Of a DNA stretch of 36,136 bases, positions 153 through 3,712 are shown piece by piece. The position numbers and the translations under genes were made by a program. The DNA is from Deltaproteobacteria bacterium (GTDB lineage: Bacteria; Desulfobacterota; GWC2-55-46), in the NCBI GenBank assembly GCA_016213015.1, contig JACRCE010000002.1, positions 1 to 36,136 of the forward strand, in the 5' to 3' direction. Every line of letters starts with the position of its first letter. The stretch's first letter is position 1. Below the pieces are notes generated by a model. The model saw nothing but the letters and a program-made list of their open reading frames with translations. It made no database searches and was not told where the DNA came from.

Positions 153-183
153 ATCGCCATTTGCAATGGGCGTGGATTGAAAC
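153..183 (+). repeat. Solitary CRISPR-repeat-like hairpin upstream of rpmG
   Basis: A 7-bp stem (CGCCATT pairing with AATGGGCG with one bulged G, loop TGC) is followed directly by GTGGATTGAAAC, the characteristic 3' tail of type I-C CRISPR repeats. There is only one unit, with no spacer or second repeat, so it is not an array. It ends 16 nt before the rpmG start codon. The last 14 bases are identical to the element at 2862-2893, while the stem sequence differs. It could be a relic, a stray integration product or an RNA-processing site; function is unknown. Confidence 0.55.
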
Positions 184-199
184 ACACGGAGAGGACGAG

Positions 200-349
200 A
201 TGAGGGACATAATCACATTGGCTTGCACGGACTGCAAGCGCAGGAACTATTCGACAACGAAGAACAAGAAGACGATACCTGAAAGGCTTGAGTTGAAGAA
301 GTTTTGCAAGTCTTGCCGGAAGCACACGCCGCACAAGGAAACCAAGTAA
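200..349 (+). CDS. rpmG: 50S ribosomal protein L33 (zinc-ribbon form)
   Basis: L33 is a small basic protein of the large ribosomal subunit near the E site. The 49-residue product has the usual length and two CxxC pairs (C9/C12 and C36/C39), marking the zinc-binding C+ form. An in-frame ATG at 161 was rejected. The ATG at 200 follows a GGAGAGGA Shine-Dalgarno at 188-195 and gives the canonical [12 protein letters not shown] start, whereas translation from 161 would read through the CRISPR-like hairpin. The gene lies between tuf and tRNA-Trp, as in many proteobacteria. Confidence 0.95.
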
Positions 350-2158: not shown

Positions 2159-2854
2159 ATGGGAAAGAAGTTCGAAGCGGCAAAGGCAAAGGTTGAGGAG
2201 GGCAGGGCTTACGTGGTCGAGGAAGGCTTTAAGCTCCTTCCAGAGACCGCGATGGCCAAGTTCGATGAAACGGTCGAGGTATCGGGTCGTCTTGGCGTAG
2301 ACCCTAAGCACCCTGAGCAGATGGTCAGGGGCACGGTCGTCCTGCCGCACGGCATCGGCAAGAAGGTAAGGGTGCTCGTCTTCGCAAAGGGTGAAAAGGA
2401 GATCGAGGCGAAAGAGGCCGGCGCCGATTATGTCGGGGCAGAGGAGCTTATCGAAAAGGTCGGCAAGGGTTGGCTTGAATTCGACAGCATCGTGGCGACG
2501 CCGGACATCATGGGCGCGGTCGGAAAGCTCGGCAAGGTGCTTGGTCCTCGCGGTCTTATGCCGAACCCCAAGCTCGGAACCGTTACGTTCGACGTAAAGA
2601 GAGCGGTTTCGGAGCTCAAGGCCGGCAAGGTCGAGTTCAGGGTCGACAAGGCCGGCAATATCCACGTGCCCGTCGGGAAGGCGTCCTTCGGCGCCGTTAA
2701 GCTCAAGGAGAATTTCCTTGCGCTCATGGAAGCCATAGTTAAGGCAAAGCCGTCATCGAGCAAGGGTATCTATCTCAGGAGCCTGTTCGTATCTACGACC
2801 ATGGGGCCGGGCATAAAGCTCGACGCGGTAGAGGTAAGGAATCAGTTCAAGTAA
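2159..2854 (+). CDS. rplA: 50S ribosomal protein L1
   Basis: L1 forms the mobile L1 stalk that moves deacylated tRNA out of the E site. In many bacteria it also represses its own rplK-rplA message. The 231-residue product is normal in length, with the two-domain L1 fold. Landmarks are [20 protein letters not shown], the signature [20 protein letters not shown] at about residues 119-138 and a C-terminal ATTMGPG-like segment ([11 protein letters not shown]). A GGAGG site overlaps the end of rplK. No obvious L1-binding copy of the rRNA site was recognised in the repeat-filled rplK leader. Confidence 0.98.
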
Positions 2855-2861
2855 GAGAGGT

Positions 2862-2893
2862 GTCGCTTCCAGCACGGGAGCGTGGATTGAAAC
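2862..2893 (+). repeat. Solitary type I-C-like CRISPR repeat between rplA and the L10 leader
   Basis: This 32-nt unit has the full architecture of a type I-C CRISPR repeat: a GTC start, a 6-bp stem GCTTCC/GGGAGC with one wobble pair around AGCAC, and the tail GTGGATTGAAAC. It is alone, with no second repeat, spacer or cas gene nearby. It begins 7 nt after the rplA stop codon and ends 4 nt before the first hairpin of the L10 leader. The last 14 bases match the element at 153-183 exactly. Confidence 0.6.
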
Positions 2894-2897
2894 GACC

Positions 2898-3167
2898 TGA
2901 CCAACGGTCAAAGACAGCAGGGGCCCATAGGGCAGTTTGCTGAAAAATCCAATCCTGACGAAGGTTGCTCAAAAAGCCGTAGATGTGAGGCGGCGAAGAG
3001 ACAACAAAGCAGATGCGGTTTTTTCAGCAGCCTTCGGGCTTAATAATCCTGCCGAGGCTGTGCGGAGACAAGCGGGGTTGATTGTATCGGCTTACGCGAA
3101 TATAGCGCGTCCTCCGGTATTCGACCTTCGCGTCCTTCTGTCTTTGAAAGGCTTATGGACAAGGACG
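2898..3167 (+). promoter_or_regulatory. L10 leader RNA (rplJ autoregulatory element) with an insertion
   Basis: Hallmarks of the ribosomal L10 leader are present. There is a TGACC-AAC-GGTCA hairpin (2898-2910), the strand AAAGACAGCAGG (2910-2921), the partner CTTAATAATCCTGCCGAGG (3039-3057), and a final 7-bp stem CGTCCTT/AAGGACG (3131-3137 with 3161-3167) just before the rplJ ribosome-binding site. In known systems the L10(L7/L12)4 complex binds this RNA and represses rplJ-rplL translation. About 97 nt of repeat family A (2936-3032) separates the two strands of the binding arm. Because the insert folds on itself, the arm can probably still form. Confidence 0.8.
2936..3032 (+). repeat. Palindromic repeat family A, copy 2 (inside the L10 leader)
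   Basis: The inner ends are GGTTGCTCAAAAAGCCGTAG (2963-2982) and CGGTTTTTTCAGCAGCC (3016-3032), which are imperfect inverted repeats. The hallmark GACAACAAAGCAGATGCG is present as AGACAACAAAGCAGATGCGG at 2999-3018. A second degenerate left end, TTTGCTGAAAAATCC, starts at 2937. This is the shortest complete copy and lacks the GCCTGCCCCCG module of copies 1 and 3. Confidence 0.75.
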
Positions 3168-3184: not shown

Positions 3185-3712
3185 TTGAAAAAAGATGCCA
3201 AGGTAGCTCTCGTCGGAGAGCTTCAAGAAAAGTTTGCAAGGGCCGGCGCTACCTTTGTCGCCGAGTACAAGGGCATAAAGGCCGTTGAGATGAACGAGTT
3301 GAGAAAGGCCATGCGCGCGGCCTCGGTTGACTTCAAGATCGTAAGGAATACACTTGCGAGGCGCGCGGTCAAGGGCACCGGACTTGAGACGATATCGGGC
3401 GATCTTAAAGGCTCCACCGCGGTTGCGTTTTCCTATAAGGACGCGGCCGGGGCGGCAAAGCTCCTTGTGCAGTTCGCCAAGGACCAGCCCAAGTTGCAGC
3501 TCAGGATGGGGACTCTCGGAACGCAGGTCATCGGCCTTGCCGAGATAAAAGGTCTTGCCGAATTGCCGCCGAGGGAAGCGCTTTTGGCCAAGCTCTTCGG
3601 CTCGATGAAGTCGCCGTCAAGCGGACTTGTGTGCGTATTGAGCGGCGTATCGAAAAAGTTCGTCCGGAGCCTGAACGCCATACGCGAGCAAAAGGCCGCT
3701 GCCGTCGCCTGA
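3185..3712 (+). CDS. rplJ: 50S ribosomal protein L10
   Basis: L10 anchors the L7/L12 dimers to 23S rRNA, forming the stalk that recruits translation GTPases, and together with L7/L12 acts as the translational repressor of its own operon. The 175-residue product has the expected globular N-terminal domain (VGELQEKFARAGATFVAEYKG, then KIVRNTLARRAV near residues 53-64) and a C-terminal helix for L7/L12 docking. The start is TTG at 3185, chosen because AGGAGGG at 3171-3177 is correctly spaced and MKKDAKVALVGEL is the expected beginning. Upstream is the interrupted L10 leader; rplL follows after 53 nt. Confidence 0.97.
   Translation: MKKDAKVALVGELQEKFARAGATFVAEYKGIKAVEMNELRKAMRAASVDFKIVRNTLARRAVKGTGLETISGDLKGSTAVAFSYKDAAGAAKLLVQFAKDQPKLQLRMGTLGTQVIGLAEIKGLAELPPREALLAKLFGSMKSPSSGLVCVLSGVSKKFVRSLNAIREQKAAAVA

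Follow-up and report, generated by a model that had tools for sequence, protein, structure and literature searches.

The 36,136-nt stretch of DNA analysed here (the window) carries, between rplA and the leader of rplJ, a solitary type I-C CRISPR repeat belonging to a chromosomal family of such solitary repeats (SRUs), which lie in sense orientation in gaps next to housekeeping genes. This kind of element is known, while its setting in host housekeeping operons is new. Tentatively, and with rather less than full conviction, we regard the family as decoys resembling the RNA anti-CRISPRs (Racrs) of viruses that are now dormant or relic. It is placed first in view of the repeated occurrence of abundant operons among the sites and the lack of Cas5d; neutral relics, a Cas-independent role in the leader and operon splitting follow in that order.

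The element at 2862–2893

The features of the window considered here, all on the forward strand, are:

154–183, forward strand: second solitary type I-C repeat, in the tuf-rpmG gap (exact 14-nt GCGTGGATTGAAAC; covariance model E 5.4e-7)
200–349, forward strand: rpmG (L33; PF00471)
2159–2854, forward strand: rplA (L1; PF00687)
2862–2893, forward strand: solitary type I-C repeat (pattern search; covariance model E 9.5e-9; fold)
2890–3148, forward strand: L10 leader (RF00557, a weak match below the gathering cut-off; relatives compared)
3185–3712, forward strand: rplJ (L10; PF00466)

The initial annotation had described a structurally complete type I-C-like repeat at 2862–2893 between rplA and the L10 leader, and its layout, stem, pairing and location were all confirmed. 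The element starts 7 nt behind rplA and shares its final 4 nt with the leader match. It is composed of GTC (2862–2864), GCTTCC (2865–2870), AGCAC (2871–2875), GGGAGC (2876–2881) and the tail GTGGATTGAAAC (2882–2893), in which the stem 2865–2870/2876–2881 encloses the loop 2871–2875 and TGGATTGAAAC (2883–2893) corresponds to the predicted 5' handle. The stem comprises 6 bp, including one G-U pair, and is closed by C-G at its base. Folded alone, the hairpin has an MFE of −10.5 kcal/mol, and it is also found as a local hairpin in a 75-nt context. This geometry fits a predicted cut by Cas5d at the base of the stem, which would leave a handle of 11 nt.

With its GYC-stem-loop-GTGGATTGAAAC arrangement, a length of ~32 nt, a 6-bp stem and a 5-nt loop, the element has the form of a type I-C repeat. 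No second tail was found near 2862–2893, so it does not constitute an array, which has at least two repeats and 33–36-nt spacers. As a solitary intergenic match whose flanks, judged by pattern and by eye, hold no partial repeat, it corresponds to an SRU. Racrs lie on a virus or mobile element, while the flanks here are rplA and rplJ; CreA/CreR have a second repeat and a guide and work with a resident cas system, and here a nearby second repeat, Cas5d and Cas1 were looked for and none was found. At the gathering threshold, Rfam gave no CRISPR family in the window and only a weak CRISPR-DR9 match was seen.

A separate observation concerns the leader itself, whose apical loop is split by a repeat-like insert of ~108 nt (TTTGCTGAAAAATCC...GGTTTTTTCAGCAGCC, window 2929–3040) where relatives have a short loop. 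A repeat similar to this insert lies in the nusG-rplK gap at about 1410–1710.

Solitary repeats across the genome and its relatives

The initial annotation had called the element lone and without a second repeat, which does not hold. The copy at 154–183 (TCGCCATTTGCAATGGGCGTGGATTGAAAC) stands 16 nt 5' of the rpmG start codon and has a stem GCC-ATT/AAT-GGGC with a bulged G, although its hairpin is not dominant when folded in longer context. Together with five solitary repeats outside the window, one each on contigs C41, C59, C69, C97 and C112, the genome thus contains at least seven I-C-like solos; those outside the window are located 5' of secD, gcvT and a deacetylase gene, and 3' of lpxC and a nusG-like gene. 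The 14-mer GCGTGGATTGAAAC occurs 12 times in the 2.27-Mb genome, seven times in an array and five times in solos. The sixth solo (C59) has one mismatch to it and the seventh (C112), directly 5' of secD, was added by the covariance model. The array is a true I-C array of eight repeats (C46:1–487), the eighth with one mismatch to GCGTGGATTGAAAC, and it begins at the contig end on its leader side. A genome search for a matching array, as the initial annotation had proposed, was successful for the array itself but did not find the accompanying Cas5d.

Near-duplicate spacers are present in the arrays of the source genome (G000; C46, L015 1–487) and of genome G004 (C12, L160 1–1086), as if a variable target had been sampled repeatedly: two copies of GGAGTCATCGCGCGCAACGCTGGAGAACATTGGA differ by one change, and two spacers in G004 are diverged reverse complements. 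When the spacers of the G000, G004 and G021 arrays were compared by BLAST with the fetched loci, only the arrays themselves appeared among the matches listed.

Combining the covariance model with the exact pattern, we counted about 22 solos in 30 genomes of the family, nine of which carry them besides the source genome. They are situated 5' of rpmC and of a metallo-hydrolase gene in G004, 5' of uppS, a DUF374 acyltransferase gene, rpsK and adk in G010, and, among others, 5' of rpoZ (G018), gapA (G007) and cbiD (G003). A POR gamma gene is preceded by a solo in both G008 and G016, orthologous sites within one genus and the one shared site seen; the G016 copy is identical in 32 of 32 positions to the array repeat of G021 and G004. 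One relative from another family has a single solo in the rpsB-tsf gap, before tsf. Most downstream genes were checked by Pfam, while cbiD, zapA and the names of upstream genes were read from the translation. Many single matches from the wider phylum were left out of the family set; they are arrays cut short close to cas1 or fortuitous matches in coding sequence that lack a hairpin (L175, L188, L218). Within the family, the match at G003:C73 has a 10-bp stem of local sequence and is possibly due to chance, as 30 genomes should contain about 0.5 14-mers of this kind.

Genome G004 furthermore contains one solo, GCATCCGGCCTTCGGGCCGGATGAGGATTGAAAC (L289, G004:C2:5342), that belongs to a second class of I-C repeat and is identical in 34 of 34 positions to the array repeat of G001. 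In sense orientation, it follows the 3' terminus of 6S RNA after 4 nt; zapA and a formyl-THF cyclo-ligase-like gene flank the site. No solos of this class were found in G001 and G002, which both bear Cas5d, and one was found in G004, where no I-C cas genes were seen. As G004 thereby holds solos of two classes without I-C cas genes, the pattern suggests that single repeats of whichever I-C class circulates get dispersed.

Chance, one of the origins originally considered, is excluded, because reversed-pattern controls were nearly empty (no match in the source genome and one in 395 genomes) and hairpins stand upstream of the tails: the family solos have a complementary stem 5' of the tail even though the search pattern consisted of the tail only. 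Across 13 solos, 93.4 % of the stem cells are paired with nine double changes, a level reached in none of 500 shuffles, and shifting the stem partner by up to three columns lowers pairing to 44–74 %. Part of this stem variation may derive from different parent arrays and not from change in place. The other origin put forward with chance, a fossil of off-target Cas1-Cas2 spacer integration, is likewise recommended by resemblance alone and is highly improbable, since integration duplicates its target and cannot itself create a repeat, and no second copy lies near 2862–2893.

Wherever a downstream gene could be assigned, in 21 solos, the orientation is sense, one further case (G007:C232) being ambiguous; a conservative count still gives 19 of 20 (P=4e-5). 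In 17 clear gaps (15 family gaps, the tsf gap and the nusG-like gap) their position is skewed to the start codon, with a mean fraction of 0.29 (KS P=0.0046, Wilcoxon P=0.01), which we take as moderate evidence because gaps and start codons were set by hand. In addition, the base directly after the tail is A in 18 of 24 solos; for array spacers the figure is 8 of 35 (P=1.3e-4). This A and the position just 5' of start codons, with no clear Shine-Dalgarno sequence seen between element and AUG at secD, rpmC, uppS and gcvT, would suit an element independent of Cas proteins, in which the hairpin and the A-rich GAAACAAAC were co-opted to stabilise mRNA ends or to open the start site. The specificity of the 12-nt I-C tail, however, goes far beyond what this role would demand, and solos also occur 229–291 nt from the start codon, 3' of lpxC and behind 6S RNA, which makes this explanation unlikely.

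Conservation of the element in the rplA-rplJ gaps of relatives, which had been suggested as a check, was not observed: the repeat tail, allowing up to one mismatch, is present in 0 of 80 related rplA loci, and no orthologous gap keeps the element. Two tested solos of G010 are also absent from the orthologous gaps of G018, a genome of the same genus, the gaps being otherwise unalignable. The solos thus appear to be gained and lost rapidly. Such turnover is what neutral relics would produce, if some form of dispersal, linked to transcription or to replication, dropped repeats into gaps and those harmless to translation survived, inert. The species-specific positions missing from orthologous gaps agree with this, as do decayed tails (GCGTGGATCAAAAC 5' of secD, GCGTGGATTAAAA 5' of rpoZ), the missing Cas5d and the two I-C repeat classes in one genome. 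Strict sense orientation, even in solos far from a start codon, argues against it, as do paired stem variants unseen in the family arrays (GCCCTT/AAGGGC, GCCTCC/GGAGGC); moreover, no mechanism is known by which a single CRISPR repeat would be copied to another place. We consider neutral relics doubtful, yet the nearest competitor of the decoy reading.

Cas genes and the rplKA-rplJL message

Searching the source assembly for Cas5d (TIGR01876), the Cas5 family (PF09704) and Cas1 returned none of them. Cas genes of type I-C normally lie on the leader side of the array. Because the arrays of the source genome and of G004 both start at a contig end on that side, a missing cas contig is possible in either genome. 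Solo-bearing relatives almost all lack Cas5d as well: of 23 genomes in which isolated matches were single or few, 22 were without it and one had a sub-cut-off fragment, compared with Cas5d in seven of seven array-rich controls (one below cut-off). This comparison has a selection bias, since genomes bearing arrays had for the most part not entered the solo group. The less biased family scan includes G021, which has a complete cognate I-C system with its array and zero solos, as well as G001 and G002, whose I-C systems use a different repeat.

Based on the hairpin, the initial annotation had proposed that Cas5d, if the genome carries one, could cut here and separate the two halves of the operon. 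The first part holds to the extent that the operon transcript would contain a plausible substrate, whereas the resident enzyme was found neither in the assembly nor in nearly all solo-bearing relatives. Splitting of the rplKA-rplJL message by a resident Cas5d would accord with the intercistronic, sense position and the right substrate geometry, and a cas operon may be missing from the assembly along with the leader side of the array. Against the missing Cas5d and Cas1, the absence of solos from G021 despite its complete system and the lack of positional conservation, we nevertheless judge it quite improbable.

Likeness to viral elements and a possible decoy function

SRUs have been described from viruses, prophages and plasmids, where viral SRUs act as RNA anti-CRISPRs and about 90 % of the SRU-bearing prophages and viruses infect CRISPR-Cas hosts (PMC10651486). 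RacrIC1 inhibits I-C immunity and is a solitary I-C repeat that shares its bicistronic mRNA with acrIC5 (PMC10651486), and a review likewise treats SRUs as elements of mobile DNA (PMC11656645). The chromosomal solos resemble them as single I-C repeats in an intergenic or mRNA position without an array or adjoining cas gene, but differ in their place, the housekeeping operons on the chromosomes of bacteria that for the most part have no I-C system. They share with type I-C direct repeats the 32-nt layout, the stem and the invariant GTGGATTGAAAC, yet lack a second repeat, spacer and leader. Like CreA/CreR (PMC8501985), in which degenerate CRISPR repeats serve outside arrays, they stand apart from arrays; creA, however, consists of two flanking repeats with a guide and operates with a resident type I system, whereas a solo is one repeat for which cas genes were not found. 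REP-type palindromes are short hairpins dispersed in gaps between genes, but they have other motifs, while the solos are CRISPR repeats with gene-tied orientation. No report of chromosomal SRUs in host housekeeping operons was found in the open-access literature searched.

For the decoy reading that we tentatively prefer, a co-transcribed solo would form the stem-loop with GUGGAUUGAAAC, presumably the form recognised by I-C Cas5d. With an I-C system present, Cas5d would be expected to bind, to cleave the G2882–T2883 bond and to remain attached to the hairpin, as in Racrs, so that an abundant ribosomal-protein mRNA could drain Cas5d in the manner of RacrIC1. As Cas5d is absent from the genome as assembled, the element would now be silent, or a relic of a past in which I-C systems were gained and lost. 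Several points weigh against this proposal: neither the source nor most solo-bearing genomes have a present Cas5d partner, orthologous gaps lack the element even inside one genus, one or two positions are altered in some tails, as neutral decay would give, the 154–183 hairpin is disfavoured in longer context, and the benefit to a host of jamming its own CRISPR is not obvious. A bolder variant, which we think improbable, would make the solos RNA anti-CRISPRs of the chromosome itself that, from highly expressed essential leaders, drain Cas5d or have essential mRNAs cut upon arrival of an I-C system, and thereby keep lineages I-C-free.

Solitary repeats have so far been treated as a viral weapon, and a chromosomal sense set in ribosomal and other essential operons, mostly without matching Cas proteins, raises the questions of how one repeat comes to be copied elsewhere, whether a host's own mRNAs serve to silence or keep out CRISPR, and whether this helps to account for the patchy distribution of I-C.

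Single I-C repeats are also numerous in viral contigs, where 37 of 77 isolated tails among the matches listed have a stem. Several stand 10–60 nt 5' of an ORF with the same leader layout and AAAC-rich flank as the chromosomal solos. Neither the exact 31-mer nor a 23-mer related to it occurred in the viral contigs searched. Five viral single I-C repeats (L433, L444, L460, L479 and L491), 18–114 nt 5' of ORFs, are candidate I-C Racrs. Finally, several solos, chromosomal as well as viral (L001, L014, L479, L433), have runs of AAACAAAC on the 3' side of the repeat, which looks like slippage and extension of its final four bases.
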